A stretch of DNA of 64,000 bases from Onchidella celtica (Eukaryota > Mollusca > Gastropoda > Systellommatophora > Onchidiidae): contig OZ007579.1 of the NCBI GenBank assembly GCA_963931925.1, positions 27,803,981 through 27,867,980 of the forward strand, read 5' to 3'. The translations under genes were made by a program, and so were the position numbers. Positions 22,001 through 63,179 of the stretch are shown piece after piece (position 1 is the stretch's first letter; every line of letters starts with the position of its first letter). The notes beneath the pieces were generated by a model. The model did no database searches. It was not told where the DNA came from and was given only the letters and a program-made list of their open reading frames with translations.

Positions 22001-22105
22001 CTAGGCGCTGTCCTGCAGGATGTAGCCCCCTCCGACAACGCTTTCCATTCTGTTCTGTCTGTTGTTTTCCTCATCCATGTTGTTCCCCCTCTCTTTGTAA
22101 TGTCT
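22000..22105 (-). pseudogene. C-terminal remnant of a non-LTR retrotransposon ORF
   Basis: On the minus strand the reading frame leaving the minisatellite continues as GRPGRRWK, DITKRGGTTW and DRTEWKAL. These correspond to the conserved tail that follows the reverse-transcriptase domain in many RTE/Jockey/CR1-type elements (typically R-x-R-W-x-D-D-I ... W ... A-x-D-R-x-x-W). Everything upstream, including the catalytic domain, is absent: the copy is 5'-truncated. A (ATT)n tail follows. The family call is from remembered motif similarity. A protein search with this segment would settle it. Confidence 0.6.
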
Positions 22106-25100
22106 TCCTTCCATCTTCTTCCTGGTCGTCCTTCCATCTTCTTCCTGGTCGTCCTTCCATCTTCTTCCTGGTCGTCCTTCCATCTTCTTCCTGGTCGTCC
22201 TTCCATCTTCTTCCTGGTCTTCCTTCCATCTTCTTCCTGGTCTTCCTTCCATCTTCTTCCTGGTCGTCCTTCCATCTTCTTCCTGGTCTTCCTTCCATCT
22301 TCTTCCTGGTCGTCCGTCCATCTTCTTCCTGGTCGTCCTTCCATCTTCTTCCTGGTCGTCCTTCCATCTTCTTCCTGGTCGTCCTTCCATCTTCTTCCTG
22401 GTCGTCCTTCCATCTTCTTCCTGGTCGTCCTTCCATCTTCTTCCTGGTCGTCCTTCCATCTTCTTCCTGGCCGTCCTTCCATCTTCTTCCTGGTCTTCCT
22501 TCCATCTTCTTCCTGGTCTTCCTTCCATCTTCTTCCTGGTCGTCCTTCCATCTTCTTCCTGGTCTTCCTTCCATCTTCTTCCTGGTCGTCCTTCCATCTT
22601 CTTCCTGGTCGTCCTTCCATCTTCTTCCTGGTCGTCCTTCCATCTTCTTCCTGGTCGTCCTTCCATCTTCTTCCTGGTCGTCCTTCCATCTTCTTCCTGG
22701 TCGTCCTTCCATCTTCCTCCTGGTCTTCCTTCCATCTTCTTCCTGGTCGTCCTTCCATCTTCTTCCTGGTCGTCCTTCCATCTTCTTCCTGGTCGTCCTT
22801 CCATCTTCTTCCTGGTCGTCCTTCCATCTTCTTCCTGGTCGTCCTTCCATCTTCTTCCTGGTCTTCCTTCCATCTTCTTCCTGGTCTTCCTTCCATCTTC
22901 TTCCTGGTCTTCCTTCCATCTTCTTCCTGGTCTTCCTTCCATCTTCTTCCTGGTCGTCCTTCCATCTTCTTCCTGGTCGTCCTTCCATCTTCTTCCTGGT
23001 CCTCCTTCCATCTTCTTCCTGGTCCTCCTTCCATCTTCTTCCTGGTCGTCCTTCCATCTTCTTCCTGGTCGTCCTTCCATCTTCTTCCTGGTCGTCCTTC
23101 CATCTTCTTCCTGGTCGTCCTTCCATCTTCTTCCTGGCCGTCCTTCCATCTTCTTCCTGGTCTTCCTTCCATCTTCTTCCTGGTCGTCCTTCCATCTTCT
23201 TCCTGGTCGTCCTTCCATCTTCTTCCTGGTCTTCCTTCCATCTTCTTCCTGGTCGTCCTTCCATCTTCTTCCTGGTCGTCCTTCCATCTTCTTCCTGGTC
23301 GTCCTTCCATCTTCTTCCTGGTCGTCCTTCCATCTTCTTCCTGGTCGTCCTTCCATCTTCTTCCTGGTCGTCCTTCCATCTTCCTCCTGGTCTTCCTTCC
23401 ATCTTCTTCCTGGTCGTCCTTCCATCTTCTTCCTGGTCCTCCTTCCATCTTCTTCCTGGTCGTCCTTCCATCTTCTTCCTGGTCGTCCTTCCATCTTCTT
23501 CCTGGTCGTCCTTCCATCTTCTTCCTGGTCCTCCTTCCATCTTCTTCCTGGTCGTCCTTCCATCTTCTTCCTGGTCGTCCTTCCATCTTCTTCCTGGTCC
23601 TCCTTCCATCTTCTTCCTGGTCGTCCTTCCATCTTCTTCCTGGTCGTTCTTCCATCTTCTTCCTGGTCGTCCTTCCATCTTCTTCCTGGTCGTCCTTCCA
23701 TCTTCTTCCTGGTCCTCCTTCCATCTTCTTCCTGGTCGTCCTTCCATCTTCTTCCTGGTCCTCCTTCCATCTTCTTCCTGGTCGTCCTTCCATCTTCTTC
23801 CTGGTCGTTCTTCCATCTTCTTCCTGGTCGTCCTTCCATCTTCTTCCTGGTCGTCCTTCCATCTTCTTCCTGGTCGTCCTTCCATCTTCTTCCTGGTCGT
23901 CCTTCCATCTTCTTCCTGGTCGTCCTTCCATCTTCTTCCTGGTCGTCCTTCCATCTTCTTCCTGGTCGTCCTTCCATCTTCTTCCTGGTCGTCCTTCCAT
24001 CTTCTTCCTGGTCGTCCTTCCATCTTCTTCCTGGTCGTCCTTCCATCTTCTTCCTGGTCGTCCTTCCATCTTCTTCCTGGTCGTCCTTCCATCTTCTTCC
24101 TGGTCGTCCTTCCATCTTCTTCCTGGTCGTCCTTCCATCTTCTTCCTGGTCGTCCTTCCATCTTCTTCCTGGTCGTCCTTCCATCTTCTTCCTGGTCGTC
24201 CTTCCATCTTCCTCCTGGTCTTCCTTCCATCTTCCTCCTGGTCGTCCTTCCATCTTCTTCCTGGTCGTCCTTCCATCTTCTTCCTGGTCGTCCTTCCATC
24301 TTCTTCCTGGTCGTCCTTCCATCTTCTTCCTGGTCGTCCTTCCATCTTCTTCCTGGTCGTCCTTCCATCTTCTTCCTGGTCGTCCTTCCATCTTCTTCCT
24401 GGTCTTCCTTCCATCTTCTTCCTGGTCTTCCTTCCATCTTCTTCTTGGTCTTCCTTCCATCTTCTTCCTGGTCGTCCTTCCATCTTCTTCCTGGTCGTCC
24501 TTCCATCTTCTTCCTGGTCGTCCTTCCATCTTCTTCCTGGTCCTCCTTCCATCTTCTTCCTGGTCGTCCTTCCATCTTCTTCCTGGTCCTCCTTCCATCT
24601 TCTTCCTGGTCGTCCTTCCATCTTCTTCCTGGTCCTCCTTCCATCTTCTTCCTGGTCGTCCTTCCATCTTCTTCCTGGTCCTCCTTCCATCTTCTTCCTG
24701 GTCGTCCTTCCATCTTCTTCCTGGTCCTCCTTCCATCTTCTTCCTGGTCGTCCTTCCATCTTCTTCCTGGTCGTTCTTCCATCTTCTTCCTGGTCGTCCT
24801 TCCATCTTCTTCCTGGTCGTCCTTCCATCTTCTTCCTGGTCGTCCTTCCATCTTCTTCCTGGTCGTCCTTCCATCTTCTTCCTGGTCGTCCTTCCATCTT
24901 CTTCCTGGTCGTCCTTCCATCTTCTTCCTGGTCGTCCTTCCATCTTCTTCCTGGTCGTCCTTCCATCTTCTTCCTGGTCGTCCTTCCATCTTCTTCCTGG
25001 TCGTCCTTCCATCTTCTTCCTGGTCGTCCTTCCATCTTCTTCCTGGTCGTCCTTCCATCTTCTTCCTGGTCGTCCTTCCATCTTCTTCCTGGTCGTCCTT

Positions 25101-25832
25101 CCATCTTCTTCCTGGTCGTCCTTCCATCTTCTTCCTGGTCGTCCTTCCATCTTCTTCCTGGTCGTCCTTCCATCTTCTTCCCGGTCGTCCTTCCATCTTC
25201 TTCCTGGTCCTCCTTCCATCTTCTTCCTGGTCGTCCTTCCATCTTCTTCCTGGTCGTCCTTCCATCTTCTTCCTGGTCGTCCTTCCATCTTCTTCCTGGT
25301 CGTCCTTCCATCTTCTTCCTGGTCGTCCTTCCATCTTCTTCCTGGTCCTCCTTCCATCTTCTTCCTGGTCCTCCTTCCATCTTCTTCCTGGTCGTCCTTC
25401 CATCTTCTTCCTGGTCGTTCTTCCATCTTCTTCCTGGTCGTCCTTCCATCTTCTTCCTGGTCGTCCTTCCATCTTCTTCCTGGTCGTCCTTCCATCTTCT
25501 TCCTGGTCGTTCTTCCATCTTCTTCCTGGTCGTCCTTCCATCTTCTTCCTGGTCGTTCTTCCATCTTCTTCCTGGTCGTCCTTCCATCTTCTTCCTGGTC
25601 GTCCTTCCATCTTCTTCCTGGTCGTCCTTCCATCTTCTTCCTGGTCGTCCTTCCATCTTCTTCCTGGTCGTCCGTCCATCTTCTTCCTGGTCGTCCTTCC
25701 ATCTTCTTCCTGGTCGTCCTTCCATCTTCTTCCTGGTCGTCCTTCCATCTTCTTCCTGGTCGTCCGTCCATCTTCTTCCTGGTCGTCCTTCCATCTTCTT
25801 CCTGGTCGTTCTTCCATCTTCTTCCTGGTCGA
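22105..25832. repeat. 23-bp minisatellite, about 162 units
   Basis: Tandem 23-bp units containing CTTCTTCCTGGTCGTC. Variation is concentrated at one base (GTCGTC, GTCTTC or GTCCTC), with rarer GTTC, GGCC and CCTCC variants. The unit is not a multiple of three and has no stop in any frame, so 1250-1325-codon open frames exist on both strands; they are not genes. On the minus strand one phase reads GRPGRRWK, the same motif as the adjoining retroposon remnant, indicating the array's origin. Rare variants GGCC (22471, 23138) and CCTCC (22716, 23383) recur exactly 667 bp (29 units) apart, showing higher-order duplication. Confidence 0.97.
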
Positions 25833-25860
25833 CCTCTTGTTCTTTTTCCTGTCCCTGGCT

Positions 25861-40355: not shown

Positions 40356-41219
40356 ATGGCGTCAAAAAGATCAGCGGCAGCTCCAGTTGTGGTGATGGCA
40401 CCCCGGGAAGTACACTTATGTAGATTCTACGGTGGTGGGGTGTCATGGACACACGTCGGTTCGTGGAAGAAGTGGAGGCTGCGTGGGAAACAGTTGGCTA
40501 CGAGACGCCATCAGCTGAGCGTGCGTTGCTGTGGGCGCACATTAGCGAGGAGGTGAGGCAGGAGCTTCATGTACTGAGCTATGGAAACTCCCGGGATCCA
40601 CAGCACATGCTGAATCTGCTGGTGACAAGTTATGGTGAAAAACAGAGTGTATCAACACTCATGGGGGTATTTTAAAACACCAGACAACGCCCTGGAGAGA
40701 GTTGTAAATCGTTCTCCCACCGACTCAGTTGGCATTTGACACTCTGGTTAACAGACAAAGGGAGACCGGAGTTACAGTCACGGATGACCACCTTTTAAGG
40801 GGACACTTTGCTGAAAATATAAGGGATTCTTTTTCACGGAAGAACCTTCGTCAGTAACTCGGGCAAAACCCAGAGCTCACTTTTGACAATCTGCGGAAGA
40901 TAGCCGAAAGGTGGGAAGAAGATGATAGAAGTGGGGATACTGTGGAAGGTGGGGAGGTAAGAGCGGTGACCTTCACACCAAGTCAGCCGTTATCAGTACC
41001 AGCAGATGCAGCAAATTCGAGTAGCGAGCCATCAGAGATAGCGCTCTTAGCAAGAGAGGTAGCAACGATCAGTGCAAGGTTGGCCGCACTGGAGAGCAAA
41101 AGGAAAACTCCATTTGCATCAACGATACAATGCTATGCTTGCGGGAGGGTGGGGCATTTTGCCTGGGAGTGCCGTAAATCAAGGTACACGAAGCAGGGAA
41201 ACAGCGCCCCCAAGCAGTA
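40356..41219 (+). pseudogene. gag: gag remnant of Ty3/gypsy element
   Basis: An ATG at 40356 opens a frame (MASKRSAAAPVVV). The frame shifts near 40440, has a TAA at about 40672, and returns in the frame starting near 40900. A capsid-like segment (VEEVEAAWETVGYETPS) and a C-terminal CCHC zinc knuckle (C-x2-C-x4-H-x4-C at about 41131-41172) identify it as Gag. At least one frameshift and two stops make it non-functional. Confidence 0.7.
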
Positions 41220-41738
41220 ATGAGTCGATCTGCAGTTGGAAGAGAGCAAAACTCTCTGCTGAAGCGAACAATCGGGGAAAGCCCTGTCATCAGATTGGAT
41301 TTGTTGGGGGTGCCTTTGTTGGCTGTCATGGATACTGGGTCACAAGTTAGCACTGTGACGGAGAGCTGGTTTCATCGACACCTTCAATCTCGATGTCAGG
41401 AACTAAAGAACGATCTGTATCTGCAGCTGACGGCGGCCAACGGGCTGGAAATTCCATATTGTGGATACTTATGTCAGACATCACCATCGCTAGACAGTGC
41501 ATCAAGGACAGAGTTTTCCTGGTGGTTCGGGACGCACCAGTGGGTATACCACCAGCCTTGTCTGCTTGGCATGAACATTCTATTGGAGTTTTCTTCGTGG
41601 GCTGAGCCCACATTGCAGTCGTCACATGCAGAGACAGCGGTGAGCTCCTGCCGAGGAAGCATGGGGAGGTTTGCGAGTCTTACCAAAAGGGTCTCTCTTC
41701 CTCCTCGGACTATGATTTTTGGTGGGCGTCACTGGTAG
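41220..41738 (+). pseudogene. Aspartic protease region of pol, frameshifted
   Basis: VMDTGSQVSTVT around 41325-41362 is the retropepsin DTG active-site motif. Sense then moves to another frame near 41465 (SDITIARQCIKDRVF), so the protease-linker region is broken. Confidence 0.65.
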
Positions 41739-41804
41739 CGGGCCAAACTGCGATGGTGAGCTTTTAGTGGAGCCTCTGGAGAACCCAATCAGGGTTGTGT
41801 TTAT

Positions 41805-42986
41805 ATGGCGGTGCCAGGCGTAAGCTCGGCGAAAGAAAGATCCTTCACTATCATGCTCACAAACACTAGTGATGAGGCTATATCCATCAGCAAAAGGACA
41901 GTGGTTGGCAGAGTGTTCACAGCAGATATTGTACCACCACAGATTCAGCTGCAGGCCACTGCTGGTGGCATTGAGGTGTCAACGATGTCGTCGCCAGCCA
42001 CTGGGCAGATAAATGTGTCATCAGTTAGCCGTGAACAGATGGGGGAGATGCTACCTGATGAGCTCACAACAGCAGAGAAAGAGGCACTTTTGTGTTTGTT
42101 AACATTAAATGCTGACGTGTTTGCATGGAACGATATGGACCTGGGATTTACTGATCGGGTTCGCCACCAAATTCCTATCACAAGTGACAATCCTATTAGA
42201 CAACCATATAGATGTATTTCTCCATGCCAATTTGAAGATGTCAGAAACCATATACAGGAGTTGGCAGATAAAGGAATTATTACACCCAGCATAAGCCCGT
42301 ATGCATCGCCTATCGTTATTGTAAAGAAGAAGAATGGAACGATTCGTCTGTGTGTTGACTATAGGAAGCTTAATGCTATCATTAGGCGGGATGCTTTTCC
42401 GCTTCCTCGAATTGACGAAACGTTGGATGCCCTTGATGGAGCCAAATATTTTTCAACCCTCGACCTGGCGAGCGGCTACCATCAGGTGGCAATGGCGGAG
42501 GATGGTCAAGAGAAGACAGTCTTCACAACACCATTCAGACTGTGGGAATACACTAGGAGGCCCTTCAGATTGACAGGAGCTCCTGCAACGTTTCAGCGCC
42601 TTATGCAGTTGCCGATGAATGACTTGGTGTTTAGGATTCTCCTGGTTTATCTGGAAAATGTCTTGGTGTACTCTGGCGAATTTACAGAGCATCTGGCAAG
42701 GTTCCAGGTGGTGCTTGATCGAGTTAGAGAATTAGGGTTAAAGCTGAATCCCTCTAAGTGTCGCCTGGCAGCGAAGTCAGTCAGCTACCTTGGTCATGTC
42801 GTTTCAGACCAGGGCATTGCAACCGACCCAGAGAAGGTCAAAGCTGTAAGCAACTGGCCTACTCCCAAGACTACACGAGAGCTGCGTTCAATCCTAGGCC
42901 TGGCAAGTTATTATCGATGCTTCATTAAAAGATTTTGCACAGACGGCAAAGCCACTACATCACATCACACATCAGGTGTATGCTGA
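41805..42986 (+). pseudogene. pol: Ty3/gypsy reverse transcriptase, catalytic motif lost
   Basis: Continuous 393-codon frame with fingers/palm motifs SPYASPIVIVKKKNGT, LCVDYRKLN and STLDLASGYHQV, plus the thumb region SYLGHVVSDQGI. The usual YxDD catalytic box is YLEN here (about 42649-42660), replacing both aspartates, so the enzyme is dead. A one-base insertion near 42925 shifts the frame just before the RNase H junction. Sequence then stops within 65 bp at an inverted LTR fragment; RNase H and integrase are missing. Conventional protease-RT order. Confidence 0.8.
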
Positions 42987-51376: not shown

Positions 51377-52223
51377 ATCCCTGTCAGGATTAGGATTTGA
51401 ATTGCCGTGCTAGGTCACGCATTGTTTATTACATGGCATCATTGATTTTAGCCAGTCCAGACGTCCTTGAACTATTCCCGTGGACGGTTTGTTTTTGTAG
51501 CGCTTTTCTTAGAGATGGAAAGAAAGTGGGTCAGGATAGAACGAATGGATAAATTAACAGTGACGACGCAGTTTGCAACCCCGTAGTTTGGGTGTACTTT
51601 AACAGGGAAAGACGGGGCGAATAAGGGGTGAATAAATTCGTACATAAAACGTTTAGGGTGTAGAGACTTTGCGAAGGGTTTTGATAGACTTTAGTAACTT
51701 TGTCTGTTACTATTAATAGAATCTAGTGGCGCTGCGAGCTGGGCTCGGGATGGATGCACCAATCAAATTTGAGCAGTCACGTGGACTTGCAGAAGATAAG
51801 CGAAGCCATCTTGAGATTTGATCACTTCCATGTAGATCCTTCAATCTACGAGGGCGGTCGGCTAAGGTCCAGCCAGAGGGAACCATAAGACTGTTAAGGT
51901 CATGTCTATGTCCTGGATAGACAATGAAATAATCCACAGCTATTTTCTCCAGTTCCCTGAAATTGTTCAGGGAACCAATCGTAAGTGTCATCACAATGAT
52001 TCGAGATGATGTGAATCTGACCCTAATGTTCCAGTAGAAGTGCTACCAAAGGAATGCAAGACCATAAAGTTTTACTTGCAATTAAGATCTAGAATGAGTG
52101 ACTGATATACACATTTTGTAAATTGTAATTGATGTGTCTGGATGAGGCTGGGGATTGCCAGCCCATCCTAGAGCAGATCTAGATCTATCTTAACTACGTC
52201 AGTGTGTCTTGACGGTTTGATCC

Positions 52224-52230
52224 TTTATAA
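52224..52230 (+). promoter_or_regulatory. TATA box of the 5' LTR
   Basis: CCTTTATAAGCAG. The same motif is kept in the 3' LTR (60083-60089) and, diverged, in the inverted solo LTR near 43868. Confidence 0.6.
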
Positions 52231-52477
52231 GCAGTTGACTGAGTTAATATTGTCGTCTGAGACATAAGAATATCATTTGTGAGATAGTAGGTAGTCTATA
52301 TTTCTGAAGATAAATAATTACTAAGTAAACTGTGAATGAGTCAGAATGATATAGAGTTTCTAATCTTTTAAGAAGCTAGGGGAGTCTTATAGTTATGTAT
52401 GTTAGTATGTTCATTTGATGCTGCTGATGTTGTCTTTTAATATGTAAACGATAGACGAAATTGTTAGGTATTTAGGT

Positions 52478-52483
52478 AATAAA
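52478..52483 (+). promoter_or_regulatory. LTR polyadenylation signal AATAAA
   Basis: GGTAATAAATTTGTGG, about 250 bp after the TATA box. The equivalent in the 3' LTR is at about 60337. Confidence 0.5.
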
Positions 52484-52668
52484 TTTGTGGCCCTACAAGG
52501 TCCTTGATATAACTTACTCGAAATTGTTATTAGTGTATGTGGCATGGTATGGCAGAGTAATTGTAAAACCTCTCGATATTAGTAAATGCAGTCGAACACC
52601 TAAATTCTATAATTAACCAATCCCCATCGTAACACTCGAGGGCACGCCCTTCTTTGAACCCGTAACAC

Positions 52669-52681
52669 TGGAGAGGGACCC
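52669..52681 (+). promoter_or_regulatory. Candidate primer-binding site
   Basis: TGGAGAGGGACCC starts one base after the 5' LTR, the position of a tRNA primer site. The matching tRNA was not determined. Confidence 0.5.
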
Positions 52682-54084
52682 TTAAAGAACCTTAGATAAC
52701 GCCATGCCACTTAGATAAATTATTTAACACCTATTGTATTTTTATTCCATTATTTGATATTGTACTGTTCTAATATTATGTTTTCAGGTCTTTTATTATC
52801 GATTTTAGGCAATTTGTACTAATTTAATTTTGTATTTCAATTTCATATGGTGAATTCAACATCCCATTGACCCGTGGACACCGGCGAGGGAACCCTTTCA
52901 CCTTCCAGATCTACCTCAGACAGAAATACAGTTTTGGGCTTGGAGCTATGGATTGAGGATATTTAACATCTGAATTCCTCAAAAATAAAGATAAGTGATC
53001 CATCTTACTAACAGTCTTGGGGAGGGCGACGTACTTTCCGCTCTGTGTGTATATTCCAGGCCATTTTTCTTTTTACTATATGTTTAGTTTAAGTGCGGGA
53101 GGTTGGTTGGGATCATAGGTTAGCATATCTTCTTTGCCATTACGAAGGATATTGGAGGCCTTGGTGGCTATGTAAAATAACTCGGGGGGATTTGCTTCTC
53201 TGTGAATAGTTCTATTAGGGTTCCATTATTCGTATAGATTGTGGCGTTCTTTTCCTTCCTCACTTTTCTTTAGGAAGATGTCTCTCCTGTTTTCTTCTCA
53301 AACTTTCTGTAATATAAGTTAGGACTTGTAGGGTCTGTTATCGTTCGTTTTACTTGTCAGTATACCGTCCTGTTTATTGTATTTCTTTTTGCTTAATGAC
53401 CTTTAAACTACTATACTAACATTGATATGTTTACAATATATGCCTGAGGTGTTTCACGTGCTAAAACCACGTTGAATTGTAATCTGGTATTGACATATGA
53501 GAGAGAGATATAATAAAGTTTTGTTCACGTGACAATTTCACGTTGGAGATAAAGAGAATAATTTTGCAGTGGTAACAGAAGACACTGCGTGTGCGTGTTT
53601 TGAGAAGAGAGAGATTTTTGAGAGTGTTTTGAGAACACAGAGATATTTCAAATTTGTCGTGTTGAGAGAGAGATATATTTTTGATTCATCGCATTGAGAG
53701 AGCGATTCGTTTTGACAGTGATAACAGAGGACACTGATTCTTGCGTTGAGAGAGACGTAAAATTCTGAGAGTGATCACTCGAGACATTAATTTATCGCAG
53801 TAAAGGCGATATAGTATAGTATTTTATTGCAGTGGGATCAACGGATAGACGGCACTGCCTTACCAGAATTTATATTGAGAGAGAGAGAGAGATAAAGTGT
53901 TTGCAGTTTAAGTGATACTGCCTGTAATTTTCAGAGAGAGATAGAACGTTCTTTTCGCGAAGCAGTGCTAACATAAGACACTGAATTAATATTAACAGTC
54001 AATAACTGTTCATATAATATAATTGACACCGCGATATACCTTAATAGTAGGTAAATACTTACTATTTACAGACTTTAACATATC
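52682..54084 (+). other. Long 5' leader of the Gmr1-like element
   Basis: A noncoding leader. From 53490 onward it repeats GAGAGAGA(T/G)AT blocks alternating with GACACTG-type words (53580, 53731, 53853, 53981). It may hold packaging or translation signals; this is inference. Confidence 0.6.
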
Positions 54085-55362
54085 ATGGCTGAGTTTCTTA
54101 AATATTTAGAATCTGCCAAAGTTCTGGGCATACCAGAGGAAAAACGCGCCGCGTGGTGCGAACGACACGTACAACAAGACCAAGAGCGCGAGGATCGAAA
54201 AGAAGCAAGAGAAAGAGAAAGAGAAAAAGAAGAAAGAGAAAGAGAAAGAGAAAAAGAAGCAAGAGAGCGAGAAAAAGAGGCTGTAGAGAGAGAAAAAAGA
54301 GAGCATGAACTCGCAATGAAAAAATTAGAGCAACAATCGCTTGTAAGCCCCTCTACTGCCAGCAATACTTATGCTCAGAAACCAAAACTACCCACATTTA
54401 ATGAAAAACTCGACCGGATCGACGCATATTTACATCGGTTCGAGTTACACGCTAAATGCGTCGGATGGCAGCAGGCGATGTACAGTTCATGCCTGTCTAA
54501 TTTATTAACCGGAAAGGCTTTAGAAGTATTTCACAGCCTTAAAGTAGAAGATGCCAACGATTATGACAAGCTTAAAACAGCACTGCTTAAGCGATTCCAG
54601 CATACCGAGGATGGCTTCCATCAGCGATTTCGCGCATGTAAACCTGAGCCATCTGAAAATTTCTCAACTTATGTGAATCGGCTGAAACATTATTTAGATC
54701 GCTGGATAGAGCTCGCGAACGTAACTACCGGAAATTATTCCCAACTTTACGATTTGGTCTTAAAGGACCAAATCTATACGGCATGTCATTCCGATTTGGT
54801 TGCCCACCTTAAAGAGAGGGCACCGACATCCTCTGAAGAAATCACATCGTGCGCCGAACGATACGCGTCCGCCCACCCAAATCGTCCTTTGGCAAAGCCT
54901 TCAACTACAACACCGTGTTATGCCAACGTAGGCAAAGGAGCGCCAACCGGACACGATCGTTCAAGGCCGACTCGTCGTCAGGCCCCAAATCCGCGCTCTC
55001 AATCAGAGCCGCCTTTTTGTAGACAGAGAGATTTTCCGAATCGAGGTAATGCATCCCCGCGTCGAGGATATCAGACTTATTCTTTTTACGAGCCTCGCCC
55101 ATATTATCGTGGCAACTATCCAGGCCAACAATATCACCGGCCTCAGGGACCGCCGCGACGAGTGCATTTTGATGATAATCATAATTATAATAGACCGCAG
55201 AGTCTTTCTTATCGTGGAAACGATCCTAATCGTACAATATGTTATAAGTGTAATAGGGTAGGCCACATACAGAGATTTTGTAACGTGAAATTGGAATCCG
55301 CAAATGCCTGCTCGGTTAAATCTACACCTTATGAGACTGACGGTCATTCTGAATCTTCATGA
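54085..55362 (+). CDS. gag: Gag polyprotein of the Gmr1-like element
   Basis: A 425-residue structural protein that would form the virus-like particle and bind element RNA. The N-terminus has a Glu/Arg/Lys-rich coiled-coil segment (about 30-85). A retrotransposon-gag capsid-like domain follows (about 100-280; NLLTGKALEVFHSL, LKRFQHTEDGFHQRF). A basic Pro/Arg/Tyr-rich region (about 285-380) leads to a CCHC zinc knuckle (C386, C389, H394, C399). The start is the first ATG in the open frame (ATCATGGCT). The frame ends at a UGA (55360-55362) followed by CAA TCA, after which pol continues in the same frame. There are no internal stops or frameshifts, consistent with a recent, functional copy. Confidence 0.93.
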   Translation: MAEFLKYLESAKVLGIPEEKRAAWCERHVQQDQEREDRKEAREREREKEEREREREKEAREREKEAVEREKREHELAMKKLEQQSLVSPSTASNTYAQKPKLPTFNEKLDRIDAYLHRFELHAKCVGWQQAMYSSCLSNLLTGKALEVFHSLKVEDANDYDKLKTALLKRFQHTEDGFHQRFRACKPEPSENFSTYVNRLKHYLDRWIELANVTTGNYSQLYDLVLKDQIYTACHSDLVAHLKERAPTSSEEITSCAERYASAHPNRPLAKPSTTTPCYANVGKGAPTGHDRSRPTRRQAPNPRSQSEPPFCRQRDFPNRGNASPRRGYQTYSFYEPRPYYRGNYPGQQYHRPQGPPRRVHFDDNHNYNRPQSLSYRGNDPNRTICYKCNRVGHIQRFCNVKLESANACSVKSTPYETDGHSESS

Positions 55363-55368
55363 CAATCA
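55360..55368 (+). promoter_or_regulatory. Putative gag-pol stop-codon readthrough site
   Basis: TGA CAA TCA: the gag stop is followed by CAR-YYA, the type-I (tobacco mosaic virus type) readthrough context. Seven sense codons then lead to the pol ATG (55384) in the same frame, with no other stop. Confidence 0.65.
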
Positions 55369-55383
55369 AAGACTATCCCAGTC

Positions 55384-58300
55384 ATGTCCGCCCTACATGA
55401 ACTGGGCGAATTAACATTTTACCAGGGCCGCGTGAACGCGATTCGCGCTTCTGTTCTACGTGACTCCGGATGCACGACTATCGGCGTTCGACAGTCACTA
55501 GTCCGTCCAACACAATTTTTGGATAAAGAGGTAACTTGTATTACTTTTGGCGGATCTGTAGAGCGATTCCGTCTTGCAGAAGTTTATATTGATACACCTT
55601 TTCTCACAGGTATTGTTACTGCATGTGTTCTGCCTAATCCAGTGGCTGATGTAATCATAGGTAATGTACCTCAAGTAAATAAGTTTCCTATCGGTAACTT
55701 GGAAATTTGGACTGAGGATGAGAGTGTTGCTTGTGCGACAACACGCCTACAATCGAGTCGACGAGCACACAGTCCATTGAGTAATCCTACTATTGAAGTG
55801 AACATAACGTCTAGTGCATTTCATGATGAGCAACATTCAGATCCCACATTGAAACATTTGTTTGCTAAGGTTGATTCTACCGCACCGGATACCTCTAAGT
55901 TTCTTATGAAAGATGACTTATTATATCGTAATTTTCGGAATAAGCGAGAGGCCGTTATGCAACTTGTAGTACCGAGATCTTTTCGTCGCGACATTATTCG
56001 TCTCGCGCATGACACTTCCTTGGCGGGTCACCAGGGAAAGGCCAGAACTAAGTCTCGAATACTATCGCAATTTTTTTGGCCCAGTATTTACGCAGATGTA
56101 AACCGGTTCGTATCAACATGTGACGTATGTCAGAGACGTACTCCTAAAGGAAGAGCATCGCGAGCTCCTCTGCAGGAGATGCCTATGGTCTCCAGACCAT
56201 TTGAGCGCGTTGCCGTAGATATAGTTGGTCCTCTACACAAGTCAGACAGAGGACATCGTTTTATACTTTCTGTCATTGACTACGCAACCCGGTGGCCAGA
56301 GGCCATTCCGCTAAAAGACATTTCAGCTGATCATATCGCTGAAGCTCTTATTACTATTTTTTCGCGTCTTGGGTTTCCGGTTGAAATTTTATCGGACAGA
56401 GGTCCACAGTTTACCTCTGAGCTTTTTAAGAAAGTCTTGGAGTTGGTCGGGATTAAACAAAGATTAACATCTCCATATCACCCACAGTCTAATGGCTGCT
56501 GTGAACGTTGGAATGCTACCATGAAAAGTATGCTTGCACGAGTTTCCGCCGACAAACCGAGTGATTGGGATCGACAACTCCCCGCTATTCTTTTTGCATA
56601 CCGAGAACTACCGAACGCATCGACGGGTTTTTCCCCCTTCGAATTATTGTATGGTCGTAAGCCGCGTGGTCCAATGGCCATACTCCATGATTTATTCGCC
56701 GGATCAGACACCGACGACAATGATACGCGGTCTGCATATCAATACGTTGTAGACTTGCGCCAGCGAATTCTTAACGCATGTCACCTCGCACAAAAATCTT
56801 CAGCTGCGCATGCGAGTCTTTATAAACAATATCGTGATCAAGGTAGCCGATTGCGAACCTTGGCCGTCGGAGACCAAACTCTTGTTCTCCTTCCGGAAAC
56901 GAAAAATAAACTCCTTCTTACATGGAAAGGACCTTTCAAAGTTCTAAAGAGACTTTCTCGAGTAAATTATCTTATCAAGATTCGAGGACAGGACAAGGTC
57001 TTCCATATAAATATGTTAAAGCAGTACCTGTCCGACGATGATAATCGACAGAATAATCGCCGAAATGTGATTGCACAGGCCAATGCGGCCTTGGTTTCAG
57101 TTGACGATGATGATCCTATCAAGATAGAGAATTCAATACCCGCACTTCGATCTTCTGAAAACACTTCGGATGTGAATATAAATCCAGATTTATCTGAATC
57201 GCAAAGACAAGATATAAAAGATTTGCTTAACGAGTTTACAACAGTCTTTACTGATCTACCAGGTAATACTTCTTTGGTACAGCATGTTATAAGATTAAAG
57301 ACGGATATACCAGTCTTTGTTAAACCATACCCGCGTCCGCTGCACGCACAGGAGACTATAATATCCGAGGTACGTAACATGTTTCACCTGGGAGTGATAG
57401 AGCGATCGACGAGCCCATATAACTCACCCATCGTCTTAGTGAAAAAAAAAGATGATACAGTGCGTTTTTGTATTGACTATCGTAAACTTAATGAGGTTAC
57501 GATATATGACGCGGAACCGATTCCCAACCAGGAGAATCTTTTTGCTCAGTTAGCTAGGGCAACGATTTTTTCTAAAATTGATCTTTCCAAAGGCTATTGG
57601 CAAATTCCGCTTGATGAGAATAGCAAGCAATATACCGCCTTTCAGACTCCGTTGGGTCTTATGCAGTGGCGCTATATGCCTTTCGGGTTAGTTACAGCCC
57701 CTGCTACTTTCGCCCGTATGATGACAATATTACTCCAGGGTATGAGTTCCGTATTGTCGTATTTTGACGACATTTGTATTTATGAAACCGATTGGTCGGG
57801 CCACCTCGCAGCCCTACGACAAGTTTTTATTGCTCTTCGTCGAGCTGGCCTTACGGCGAAACCCAGTAAGGTATTTTTAGGATATAATGAAATTAATTTT
57901 CTGGGCCATACAATTGCCCACGGCGTTCAGACTCCTGATGACAAGAAGATAACTACCATCTTAAAGCTCCAACCACCTCGAACTAAGAAAGAAGTTCGTA
58001 GTTTATTGGGCTTTCTTAACTATTATAGGAAATTCATTCCAAATTTTTCTTCGCTTACAGCTCCGTTATCGGACCTCACAAGAAAGAATTTTCCTAATAA
58101 AGTTAAATGGACAACCGAATGTGCTGATACACTTCGTACCGTTCAACAATTGTTTTCCACTTCCCCCATTCTCATACTGCCAGATATTAACCAAATATTT
58201 ATTGTCCGCACTGATGCGTCGGACAAGGGATTGGGAGCTGTGTTGTTACAGGAACGAGACGATACCTTGCGGCCATGTCTATACGCCAGCCGCAAGTTGC

Positions 58301-58563
58301 TAGATAGGGAATGCCGCTATGCAATTATCGAGCGAGAGTGCCTCGCTATCATTTTTGCTGTAAACGCATTTTCGCGATATCTATTCATGTCTGAATTTAT
58401 AATTGAAACGGACCATCGTCCGTTGTTATTCTTAAAGACTAACAGGGCTAAAAATGCTCGATTAACGAGGTGGAGTCTTGCACTCCAGGAATACCGGTTT
58501 GTAATCCGTGCTGTCCCTGGCGGTGACAATTCCCAAGCTGATATTTTGTCACGTCTCATTTAA
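55384..58563 (+). CDS. pol: Pol polyprotein: PR-IN-RT-RNase H
   Basis: 1059 residues from the first ATG; the frame is open back to the gag stop, so the true N-terminus is probably a readthrough fusion. Domains in order: aspartic protease with a DSG active site (D27), in place of the common DTG; integrase zinc finger (H209, H216, C246, C249) and DD35E core (D279, D338, E374); a GPY/F-type module (WKGPFKVL at 514); reverse transcriptase with FCIDYRKLN, motif-A D733 and YFDD (793-796); RNase H with D944, E985 and D1010, ending GGDNSQADILSRL. All catalytic residues are present. Integrase before RT is diagnostic of Gmr1-like elements. The protein copies element RNA and inserts the cDNA. Confidence 0.95.
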   Translation: MSALHELGELTFYQGRVNAIRASVLRDSGCTTIGVRQSLVRPTQFLDKEVTCITFGGSVERFRLAEVYIDTPFLTGIVTACVLPNPVADVIIGNVPQVNKFPIGNLEIWTEDESVACATTRLQSSRRAHSPLSNPTIEVNITSSAFHDEQHSDPTLKHLFAKVDSTAPDTSKFLMKDDLLYRNFRNKREAVMQLVVPRSFRRDIIRLAHDTSLAGHQGKARTKSRILSQFFWPSIYADVNRFVSTCDVCQRRTPKGRASRAPLQEMPMVSRPFERVAVDIVGPLHKSDRGHRFILSVIDYATRWPEAIPLKDISADHIAEALITIFSRLGFPVEILSDRGPQFTSELFKKVLELVGIKQRLTSPYHPQSNGCCERWNATMKSMLARVSADKPSDWDRQLPAILFAYRELPNASTGFSPFELLYGRKPRGPMAILHDLFAGSDTDDNDTRSAYQYVVDLRQRILNACHLAQKSSAAHASLYKQYRDQGSRLRTLAVGDQTLVLLPETKNKLLLTWKGPFKVLKRLSRVNYLIKIRGQDKVFHINMLKQYLSDDDNRQNNRRNVIAQANAALVSVDDDDPIKIENSIPALRSSENTSDVNINPDLSESQRQDIKDLLNEFTTVFTDLPGNTSLVQHVIRLKTDIPVFVKPYPRPLHAQETIISEVRNMFHLGVIERSTSPYNSPIVLVKKKDDTVRFCIDYRKLNEVTIYDAEPIPNQENLFAQLARATIFSKIDLSKGYWQIPLDENSKQYTAFQTPLGLMQWRYMPFGLVTAPATFARMMTILLQGMSSVLSYFDDICIYETDWSGHLAALRQVFIALRRAGLTAKPSKVFLGYNEINFLGHTIAHGVQTPDDKKITTILKLQPPRTKKEVRSLLGFLNYYRKFIPNFSSLTAPLSDLTRKNFPNKVKWTTECADTLRTVQQLFSTSPILILPDINQIFIVRTDASDKGLGAVLLQERDDTLRPCLYASRKLLDRECRYAIIERECLAIIFAVNAFSRYLFMSEFIIETDHRPLLFLKTNRAKNARLTRWSLALQEYRFVIRAVPGGDNSQADILSRLI

Positions 58564-59225
58564 TTTCCTATTAAAGAGTGTTGTGTCTTGTATTGGGGTT
58601 GGATAGTGCTTGTCCCCCTCAATTCTAGACGGTGGATGGATTCACATTTATCTTGTTCATTACTTTATGAACCATTTTTACAATCCTTTTTTTTGAATAT
58701 CCTCTTTCCACCAGCGTCATTCCTGACTGTGACCTGAACTTCTGGCAAACCTGACGCCCTTGTCAGCGGGTCAATGAGATGAAGACATGGCAAACCAAGC
58801 TACCAGAGCTACTGCTGCCATTGGATACCACAGTATTTTAATTAACAATATATTGTGTGTGAATGTGTATATAAGCAGCCATTCTGTGTGTTGACTAGAT
58901 AGTTATAAGCCTATTTCTTCAGTAAGGCTTCATTATTTGATAATAGTTATACTTTAACCCAGCAGTATACAGTGATATACTCATTATTATTATAGATGTT
59001 CTGAGAATTTTGATTGTGTGCAGTAAGAATGTTTAAATAGAATAAATTCTATAGAACGTGGCATCAATAATTGTATGCTTTTTGTCCATCCAATATGCAC
59101 GTTCTTAATTGGATTTTTCTTCTCAAGCTTAAGACTCATTTTTCTACAGTACTACTTAGGCCCCTACCACAATAACTTTGGGATTTCTTGGATCTTATCG
59201 TGTAAATTTTTCTTAAAATTTTCAC
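58564..59225 (+). other. 3' noncoding region of the Gmr1-like element
   Basis: Between the pol stop and the polypurine tract. No env-like or other ORF is visible. Confidence 0.7.
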
Positions 59226-59239
59226 TGGGGTGGGGGATA
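59226..59239 (+). promoter_or_regulatory. Polypurine tract
   Basis: GGGGTGGGGGATA directly precedes the TG of the 3' LTR. The same tract occurs inverted at 63933-63945 beside another LTR. Confidence 0.8.
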
Positions 59240-60526
59240 TGTCAGGATTAGGATTTGAATTGCCGTGCTAGGTCACGCATTGTTTATTACATGGCATCAT
59301 TGATTTTAGCCAGTCCAGACGTCCTTGAACTATTCCCGTGGACGGTTTGTTTTTGTAGCGCTTTTCTTAGAGATGGAAAGAAAGTGGGTCAGGATAGAAC
59401 GAATGGATAAATTAACAGTGACGACGCAGTTTGCAACCCCGTAGTTTGGGTGTACTTTAACAGGGAAAGACGGGGCGAATAAGGGGTGAATAAATTCGTA
59501 CATAAAACGTTTAGGGTGTAGAGACTTTGCGAAGGGTTTTGATAGACTTTAGTAACTTTGTCTGTTACTATTAATAGAATCTAGTGGCGCTGCGAGCTGG
59601 GCTCGGGATGGATGCACCAATCAAATTTGAGCAGTCACGTGGACTTGCAGAAGATAAGCGAAGCCATCTTGAGATTTGATCACTTCCATGTAGATCCTTC
59701 CATCTACGAGGGCGGTCGGCTAAGGTCCAGCCAGAGGGAACCATAAGACTGTTAAGGTCATGTCTATGTCCTGGATAGACAATGAAATAATCCACAGCTA
59801 TTTTCTCCAGTTCCCTGAAATTGTTTCAGGGAACCAATCGTAAGTGTCATCACAATGATTCGAGATGATGTGAATCTGACCCTAATGTTCCAGTAGAAGT
59901 GCTACCAAAGGAATGCAAGACCATAAAGTTTTACTTGCAATTAAGATCTAGAATGAGTGACTGATATACACATTTTGTAAATTGTAATTGATGTGTCTGG
60001 ATGAGGCTGGGGATTGCCAGCCCATCCTAGAGCAGATCTAGATCTATCTTAACTACGTCAGTGTGTCTTGACGGTTTGATCCTTTATAAGCAGTTGACTG
60101 AGTTAATATTGTCGTCTGAGACATAAGAATATCATTTGTGAGATAGTAGGTAGTCTATATTTCTGAAGATAAATAATTACTAAGTAAACTGTGAATGAGT
60201 CAGAATGATATAGAGTTTCTAATCTTTTAAGAAGCTAGGGGAGTCTTATAGTTATGTATGTTAGTATGTTCATTTGATGCTGCTGATGTTGTCTTTTAAT
60301 ATGTAAACGATAGACGAAATTGTTAGGTATTTAGGTAATAAATTTGTGGCCCTACAAGGTCCTTGATATAACTTACTCGAAATTGTTATTAGTGTATGTG
60401 GCATGGTATGGCAGAGTAATTGTAAAACCTCTCGATATTAGTAAATGCAGTCGAACACCTAAATTCTATAATTAACCAATCCCCATCGTAACACTCGAGG
60501 GCACGCCCTTCTTTGAACCCGTAACA
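59240..60526 (+). repeat. 3' LTR of the Gmr1-like element
   Basis: Matches the 5' LTR except for one A/C change (51839 versus 59701) and one extra T near 59825. Confidence 0.95.
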
Positions 60527-60531
60527 ATCCC

Positions 60532-61132: not shown

Positions 61133-61723
61133 CTAAAAATCTGGGCCAACAAACTGATTGTAAGCAAGAAAACAAAGACGCTTCATATTCTCCTCATTAA
61201 GACTTCGTCTTCTGGGGGAAAGAATTAAGTTATAAAGAGAGAAACTGCGTTCGGCATCAGCTGAATTCACAGTTGAACAAATAAGTGGCTTGGCAAGAGC
61301 AGCCAGGTTAGGAAGGTCATCGGTCACTGATGCCCAGAACAGATGAGGGTTCACTGATGATATTGACATTTGAACAGCATTTGGACCAAGCTTGGTCATG
61401 TACTTCTTGATTTCATCTTCTGGAATATTCTGAAGTTCTTTGATTGCAATTGATGAAGTTACATCTTCTGCTCCTGAAAAAAAAATTAATCTGTTAGGAT
61501 TGAAGAACTGGATATCCTTCAGAAATTGGATTCTAGGCTGTTCTTCAGGAGTCAAGTATTTCACTAGCTTTGCCTCTGCAAGGGCAAAGGCCTGCCCAAA
61601 CAAGTCTTGAAGCTCCACTTTTTCAGCATGGGTGAAGTCGTCCAGGTAGAATTGGGAGCATTCTCTTTGGGATATGCACCCGCCATAAAAGCGACTTTGC
61701 AAGACCTCCAACATTGGCCATGC
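61133..61723 (-). CDS. hAT transposase-like protein, last exon
   Basis: C-terminal exon. The acceptor CATCTTTTCTAG precedes GCATGG at 61723, and the frame is phase 0 with the upstream exon. It encodes the hAT C-terminal dimerisation region: LAALAKPLICSTVNSADAER and SFSLYNLILSPRRRSLNEEN, ending after AYNQFVGPDF. The S-A-D-A-E-R-S-F-S signature is characteristic of hAT transposases and host genes derived from them. With the two exons to the right, 422 codons (including the stop) are uninterrupted, so this is either a recent intron-bearing transposon or a domesticated gene. The N-terminal part lies beyond a disrupting LTR or outside the window. Confidence 0.8.
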   Translation of the reverse strand, partial: AWPMLEVLQSRFYGGCISQRECSQFYLDDFTHAEKVELQDLFGQAFALAEAKLVKYLTPEEQPRIQFLKDIQFFNPNRLIFFSGAEDVTSSIAIKELQNIPEDEIKKYMTKLGPNAVQMSISSVNPHLFWASVTDDLPNLAALAKPLICSTVNSADAERSFSLYNLILSPRRRSLNEENMKRLCFLAYNQFVGPDF

Positions 61724-62008
61724 CTAGAAAAGATGTAGAAAAAAGCAAAGGTGTTGGAGTGGGACCATAACAATAATGAACATTAGTATTATGTATGGAA
61801 AAGAATGTATAAATTATGTTCAATGTCATTAAAATGTCAGACCCAAGTTGTGAAAAAGTTCTAGTAGGCATGCAGTAGTAAAAGTATTATATAAAAAGCA
61901 TTAATAAGAGTGAAAAATGGAAAGGCATACATAACAAAAACTCAAAAACAAATCAATAATATTACCGGTATATTATAATGTGAAGTAATCTTTGAACAAA
62001 AATCACAC

Positions 62009-62258
62009 CTTTAATGCCAATGGCTGTTGACTTTGAAAAACATTCAATGCTTGAACAAACATTTCACTTTTCTCAGTGATAAATTTCATTTTCTGGAGGA
62101 GTAGGACCGAAGTCTTGTTATCCAGGAACAGTTCTTTCAGGTCCTTCAAGGAATCTGGCGCTGCAGATTTTGCCAAATCCATCTCTCTCTCCATAAATGT
62201 CTTGTAAGCAGAAAAGTGCTCCACATGGTAAGCAACAGCGTCGTACCAACAATTCCAT
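62009..62258 (-). CDS. hAT transposase-like protein, middle exon
   Basis: The acceptor AAAATTTTCAG precedes ATGGAATTG (62258), and the donor AAAG|GTGTGA lies at 62009. Splicing to the upstream exon rebuilds a TRWN...WYDA motif, the S/T-R-W signature seen in hAT transposases, across the junction. It also encodes LAKSAAPDSLKDLKELF. 250 bp, keeping the frame on both sides. Confidence 0.78.
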
Positions 62259-62683
62259 CTGAAAATTTTGACAAAACAAATTAAATGGCTTTATTGTAGT
62301 AAATTTACTGGTAAATTAAATGCAGGAGACAAGGACAAAGTTCTGAAAGTGAAAAGACAATCACATTAACATATAATATAGTCAAAGTCAAAATCTACAA
62401 ACCCAGTGGAGGAAAAATGCAAAGAATAACAAGAATCCACACATGAAGAACAATTCAAATTAAATAATTTATTTTTAAGACGATTTTTCAAGCAAGACCA
62501 ATAAACTCTCAAAATACATGTATTGAGAACAGAAGATATTATAAAGGGTGAGCTAAAAATGACTACCACTATCACATGTTAAGAGTCTATAATGCCGGGT
62601 AATAAATATGAAAAAGTAAACAGAGACAGATACAAAAACAACACCAAAGCTGTTTCACTACTTTCAGACAAACTCAAACTAAC

Positions 62684-63135
62684 CTTGTAGAAATTGGATT
62701 TGGAGGCATAGTGGCTTTTTTCTTCATCACAGAAGCAATGTGGCTCTGATATCTTGCTTTCCTGGCATTGGCATGAAAGAATAGCGCATTCATATTCTTC
62801 ACAAATTTAGTCACTTGTTTGAATGGTTTTTTGAATGCATCTCCAAGTAAGTTCATTACAGGTGCTAAGCAGGTAATGTGTACAGAATTTGGAAAGACTG
62901 AATGTAAGGTAGTGAATGCTTTGTGCATATATGATGCATTGTCTGTGTTTATCACTCTTACATTGTCAAACTGGATGTCAAATTGTTGAACAGTCTTCAA
63001 AACACTTTGAGTCACAGTGATGTGATTTGTTGCTTCTAGATAAACAGTGTCCAGAAGGTATGTTTTGATTTTGATTTGACACGCCATGGAGAATGCTTGT
63101 ACAACCATGCGTTGTCTGGCGGTAGCTCTGAAACT
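62684..63135 (-). CDS. hAT transposase-like protein, upstream exon
   Basis: RNase H-fold core of the transposase: VRVINTDNASYMHKAF (a D-N-A-x-Y motif), then a HITCLAPVMNL segment where related proteins usually carry C-x-x-H (here Pro replaces His), then SVMKKKATMPPNPISTR up to the donor AG|GTTAGT. The upstream limit is uncertain: the frame stays open to about 63157, and a possible acceptor lies near 63130-63142. Immediately further upstream on this strand lies an LTR, so earlier exons are displaced or lost. No BED finger is visible. Confidence 0.72.
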
Positions 63136-63179
63136 GTCTTCAAAAGTAAGTAGAACGGTTCACTTTCATCATTACAAAT

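Follow-up and report, generated by a model that had tools for sequence, protein, structure and literature searches.

A young Gmr1-like retrotransposon of Onchidella celtica with a putative stop-codon readthrough signal between gag and pol

A stretch of 64,000 nucleotides from the gastropod Onchidella celtica (assembly GCA_963931925.1, contig OZ007579.1, positions 27,803,981 to 27,867,980; hereafter the window) carries a long terminal repeat (LTR) retrotransposon of 9145 bp at 51382-60526. An initial annotation, made from the letters of the window, had described it as complete, with target-site duplications (TSDs), near-identical LTRs, open gag and pol frames and the domain order protease (PR), integrase (IN), reverse transcriptase (RT), RNase H (RH). 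The element is indeed complete: its LTRs, the TSD, both open frames and the order of its domains are all as claimed. We also observed a feature absent from that annotation: gag and pol lie in one frame, and a TGA at 55360 is the only stop from 54085 to the end of pol. Taken as a whole, the locus is probably a complete, young and intact Gmr1-like Ty3/gypsy element of order PR-IN-RT-RH that makes Gag-Pol by programmed readthrough of UGA-CAAUCA. Coordinates of its features are collected in Table 1.

Table 1. Features of the element, in positions of the window.
Feature	Position	Strand	Basis or remark
TSD ATCCC, left copy	51377-51381		identical 5-mer on both sides
5′ LTR, 1286 bp, TGTCAGG...GTAACA	51382-52667	+	LTR alignment
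TATAA in 5′ LTR, likeliest promoter site	52226	+	putative role; other TATAA matches exist
AATAAA in 5′ LTR, likeliest poly(A) site	52478	+	putative role; other AATAAA matches exist
Long leader ahead of gag	52668-54084	+	
Primer-binding-site candidate TGGAGAGGGACCC	52669-52681	+	putative role, from position and TGG start
gag, 425 amino acids	54085-55362	+	open reading frame without internal stop
In-frame UGA then CAAUCA, fits stop-CARYYA	55360-55368	+	sole stop between gag and pol
pol, 1059 amino acids from first ATG, in the frame of gag	55384-58563	+	open reading frame without internal stop
Protease region, pol residues 10-103, DSG at 27-29	55411-55692	+	alignment
Integrase, H2C2 zinc binding and DDE core (D279, D338, E374)	55969-56505	+	Pfam, alignment
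Integrase C-terminal SH3/p58-like module with WKGPF, residues 503-548	56890-57027	+	Pfam
Reverse transcriptase with YFDD, residues 793-796	57439-57915	+	Pfam, alignment
RNase H	58183-58494	+	Pfam, alignment
Polypurine-tract-like GGGGTGGGGGA, adjoins 3′ LTR	59227-59237	+	
3′ LTR, 1287 bp	59240-60526	+	LTR alignment
TSD ATCCC, right copy	60527-60531		identical 5-mer on both sides

Anatomy and age of the element

Both LTRs have TG...CA ends, and the same 5-mer flanks the element on its two sides, in agreement with the 5-bp TSD first proposed. The two differences reported between the LTRs over 1287 bp are one substitution (A at 51843, C at 59701) and one 1-bp indel (a T at 59824). The divergence K is thus about 1/1286, or 0.00078 substitutions per site. 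With neutral rates between 1e-9 and 1e-8 per site per year, values that are not specific to this host, the insertion would date very roughly to 0.04-0.4 million years ago. The LTR identity is consistent with the suggestion that the element was recently active; it may perhaps be so still.

The primer-binding-site candidate begins 1 nt after the 5′ LTR and starts as expected of such a site; no primer tRNA was assigned to it. The leader is crowded with initiation codons: 23 ATGs occur upstream of gag from 52250 to 54084, none of them with a frame longer than 14 codons. The gag AUG at 54085 has A at -3 and G at +4. Residues 177-264 of Gag match SCAN, barely over the Pfam cut-off, and many of the homologues described below have a SCAN match too; a PNMA match stays under its cut-off, and one CX2CX4HX4C zinc knuckle can be read from the sequence at residues 386-399.

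Neither gag nor pol holds an internal stop, and both are intact as annotated. The Pfam matches in Pol follow in the order H2C2 (residues 196-254), rve (270-367), RVT_1 (686-844) and RNase H (934-1037). In the C-terminal part of the integrase PF22938 (residues 516-546) is over its cut-off and PF24626 under it. No Pfam match was obtained for the protease, which was called instead from an alignment of 20 proteins, every one of which has L25, R26, D27 and G29. These coordinates bear out the order PR-IN-RT-RH. In the same alignment D279, D338, E374, D733, D795, D796, D944, E985 and D1010 are invariant; we take these nine residues to be catalytic. An extra gene was sought between pol and the 3′ LTR, and this interval contains no open reading frame (ORF) of at least 100 amino acids.

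Integrase-first order and relationship to Gmr1-like elements

A protein search with Pol, in which the 7986 candidates sharing most words were scored, gave 2955 homologues; the best 120 were listed, and the counts below refer to these. The first ten are 48-52% identical to Pol over 99% of its length. Named hosts among the 120 include molluscs (Littorina, Plakobranchus, scallops), echinoderms (Lytechinus, Patiria, Diadema, Holothuria) and the brachiopod Lingula. Domain profiles, built from the alignment of this Pol and 19 homologues, place IN ahead of RT in 120 of 120. The protease profile starts at residue 160-530 in 105 of them, meaning that at least 159 residues precede it in one ORF; by their position these residues are Gag or part of Gag, and in many of the proteins SCAN, zinc-knuckle or further gag domains are annotated. 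We call such proteins fused. The profile starts before residue 30 in 13 others, called split, and at residue 39 in P0059; P0049 has no protease match.

A second search was seeded with L002, an element of canonical order from the genome-contig scan described below. RT lies ahead of IN in 114 of the 120 proteins listed for it. The remaining six were scored IN-RT, but each domain is present two or three times in all of them; because they are fused gene models with repeated domains (repeats are found in 36 of the 120), their order is uninformative.

RT-RH and IN were analysed in separate trees of 55 proteins (420 and 251 columns, respectively), by short searches and with rooting on the canonical rows. 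Both trees contain this element, all 13 split and 23 of the 105 fused homologues, the integrase-first locus L001 and 17 canonical gypsy proteins, and no copia or Gmr1-labelled sequence. P0049 and P0059 were omitted, as were loci L005, L007 and L008, and three of the 20 canonical rows chosen (P0247, P0241, P0252) were dropped for a repeated domain. In the RT-RH tree the 38 integrase-first rows, this element included, are split from the 17 canonical rows with a value of 100 in the Shimodaira-Hasegawa-like approximate likelihood-ratio test (SH-aLRT), and the IN tree gives the same division, 38 against 17, with the same value. The initial annotation had proposed comparing RT and IN separately with reference elements; against 17 gypsy references, none from copia, the element falls among integrase-first elements in both cases, and not within ordinary gypsy clades. 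RT and IN thus share one history here, consistent with a single switch of domain order within the sample.

The clade is that of Gmr1 of Atlantic cod, for which Goodwin and Poulter (2002) are cited. The present element resembles it in having integrase before reverse transcriptase, together with RT-RH and IN of gypsy type. Protein comparison supports its membership in the Gmr1-like Ty3/gypsy elements; none of the listed homologues is labelled Gmr1, so the family name was given from the domain order, with integrase-first proteins of echinoderms (Lytechinus, Patiria, Holothuria, Diadema) standing in for deuterostome members. Passages in PMC6238403, PMC3587641, PMC8220671 and PMC2582038 give the Gmr1 group as the exception to the usual gypsy domain order, and so back what the initial annotation had said of it. 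Integrase-first order is therefore already known for Gmr1-like elements, and this element is a new and, in that respect, ordinary member. Membership in Ty1/copia was rejected: the top solved-structure match is Ty3 for both RT-RH and IN, and the Pfam matches are RVT_1 and RT_RNaseH.

Four Gmr families of tetraodontiform fish, in a table of PMC11117352, have one Gag-Pol frame of 1506-1634 amino acids, LTRs of 337-518 bp and total lengths of 6.1-6.5 kb. The LTRs described here exceed those lengths by a factor of about 2.5-4, and the whole element measures 9.1 kb. The single Gag-Pol ORF, typical of these four families but not defining, is interrupted here: gag and pol are separate, in the same frame, with a UGA between them.

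The stop codon between gag and pol

The UGA is followed by CAAUCA and fits stop-CARYYA, the known readthrough motif of tobacco mosaic virus. The sequence features expected of programmed readthrough are present, namely a common frame, one stop and a stimulatory context. Of the 3021 stop triplets on the window's + strand, 7 are followed by CARYYA, the gag stop included; an order-1 model of the element gives 207 of 113981, and by chance the motif is expected after about 0.2% of stops. In PMC4132726 about 15% readthrough is given for CARYYA in the OPRL1 context, and with this motif UGA is about as good as UAG and far better than UAA. Natural cases are described in a passage of PMC3542737 as generally UAG, and plant viruses are named. 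Judged from sequence, programmed readthrough of the UGA is the likeliest reading of the junction.

Expression of the element might then proceed as follows. Transcription would begin in the LTR downstream of the TATA-like site, and Gag would be translated from the AUG at 54085. A minority of ribosomes would insert an amino acid at UGA-CAAUCA and continue, giving a Gag-Pol precursor from which the protease would release IN and RT-RH. Complementary DNA would be synthesised inside Gag particles and inserted by IN with a 5-bp duplication. On this view the UGA would be read through in the host, and Gag would be in excess over Gag-Pol.

Nine close relatives also lack a fused Gag. These split proteins from metagenome-type sources (P0001-P0007, P0009 and P0010) share 49-52% identity with Pol over 99% of its length; in them, as here, the pol frame is separate from gag, and their protease profile begins at residue 6-19, compared with residue 10 in this element. 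In a concatenated tree of 43 rows the element and these nine form a clade (ultrafast bootstrap 98, SH-aLRT 88). The nine alone (100/96) are sister to the element, and they are nested among fused proteins. The split state requires five changes on this tree. The four further split proteins (P0013, P0048, P0057, P0063) are placed elsewhere, among fused ones, and could represent broken or wrongly called copies. Among the nine, the longest contig measures 3.9 kb for P0004 and 4.8-8.8 kb for the other eight, so truncation alone is unlikely to have caused the split in most of them.

Several points weigh against readthrough. The leader contains another stop-CARYYA, at 53993, so that two of the 544 stop triplets of the element carry the motif, and it is thus also present where it has no such function. 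RNA folding 3′ of the UGA is only slightly better than in shuffled sequences (z -1.68; 10 of 200 equally good). The grouping with the nine relatives has a support of only 40 in the RT-RH tree and 80 in the IN tree; for these relatives, represented here by their protein starts, an in-frame stop is predicted, and a frameshift may take its place.

Pol could alternatively be made separately, either by re-start at the pol AUG, which lies 21 nt downstream of the gag stop with G at -3, or from a spliced or internally initiated RNA. The number of ATGs in the leader lends this some weight, since unusual initiation or splicing may operate there anyway. We nevertheless consider separate synthesis unlikely: one frame has been retained, with a single stop within a motif known to favour readthrough, and the pre-protease part and Pol lie in one ORF in 105 of the best 120 homologues. 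The same 105 proteins, with at least 159 pre-protease residues in the ORF, would suit another explanation, in which the UGA arose by chance as a nonsense mutation, in an element that normally has one ORF, and the present copy is either dead or dependent on help in trans; split proteins P0013, P0048, P0057 and P0063, lying apart among fused ones, could likewise be broken or mis-called. This appears less likely still, as the stop sits right at the border between Gag and protease, is followed by a motif expected after some 0.2% of stops and is the only in-frame stop within gag or pol, while nine close relatives, in a clade with the element, also have no fused Gag. A chimera or an assembly error uniting two elements within pol, a caveat raised in the initial annotation, has nothing in its favour and is very unlikely, given the same domain order in all of the best 120 homologues, full-length ones among them, the consistent placement in the RT-RH and IN trees, and LTRs and TSD that agree at both ends.

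Programmed readthrough, the reading preferred here, has precedents. PMC10085805 describes five Ty3/gypsy elements of fission yeasts (Tj1, Tosmo1-3 and Tcry1) in which gag and pol are separated by an in-frame TGA, reports the stop of Tj1 as essential for transposition, and gives their relatives Tf1 and Tf2 as one-ORF elements, a precedent for such a switch. As described there, these elements differ from the present one in their order (PR, RT, IN), in the context of the stop (TGA-CT and not TGA-CARYYA) and in belonging to the Tf1/sushi group. Moloney murine leukaemia virus, a gammaretrovirus that we compare as a mechanism and not as a relative, also keeps Gag and Pol in a common frame that one stop interrupts; there this stop is a UAG with a stimulatory pseudoknot, in contrast to UGA-CARYYA and a weak fold here. 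A pseudoknot of that kind 3′ of the stop is less likely for this element, given the weak signal in a computation of pseudoknot-free folds.

We put forward, tentatively and with rather more doubt than confidence, that a Gmr1-like subclade comprising this element and at least its nine nearest split relatives exchanged a one-ORF Gag-Pol for programmed readthrough of UGA-CARYYA of tobamovirus type. An animal retroelement would then have converged on a signal reported elsewhere chiefly from plant viruses. Literature searches on Gmr1 and Gmr1-like elements, covering titles and the openings of abstracts, returned no report of gag-pol readthrough in this group. If the proposal is true, split Gag and Pol with UGA-CARYYA would add a recoding strategy new to the Gmr1-like group in the literature so covered, and the fused and split sister clades would form a natural pair for studying how the ratio of Gag to Gag-Pol changes, in parallel with Tf1 and Tj1.

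Related sequences in other collections and in the window

A scan of genome contigs for relatives of the element gave eight loci (L001-L008); two scans of viral contigs found none, and a plasmid search returned 132 records, each with less than 80% of pol covered and with identity under 60%. L001 is an integrase-first relative with a single frame of 1476 amino acids, in a bin of the bacterial symbiont 'Candidatus Thiodubiliella'; it is probably contamination of this bin by the animal host. The order is canonical in L002, L003, L004 and L006. Of these, L004 and L006, from Erythrobacter and Deltaproteobacteria bins, are nearly identical canonical gypsy elements with SH3_Tf2-1 matches, and L004 has a Chromo domain; both are probably eukaryotic contamination.

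The window holds older remains of the same kind. A diverged LTR with TG...CA ends lies on the - strand at 44846-43435; it is 77.7% identical to that of the element in ungapped columns, with 228 gap columns of 1463, and is the remains of an older relative. No 5-bp duplication is evident there. The LTR is followed by a C and by the primer-binding-site-like TGGAGGGCAC; the TGGAG... sequence after this LTR differs from TGGAGAGGGACCC. A third, older Gmr1-like remnant is found at about 63953-63913 (- strand), where a polypurine tract and LTR start match those of the element at 86% over 43 bp and the LTR body is unmatched; here the 11-mer GGGGTGGGGGA recurs at 63945-63935 (- strand), adjoining the diverged LTR start.

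Three further features were noted in the window. A broken gypsy-type element with a zinc knuckle and an RVT_1 match occupies 40858-42986 (+ strand). Remains of a hAT transposase lie at 61133-63159 (- strand), with the C-terminal dimerisation domain and a weak DUF659 match under its cut-off. Finally, a tandem array of a 23-bp unit extends over 22102-25835, with about 162 copies at 97% match, and is open in several frames on both strands.

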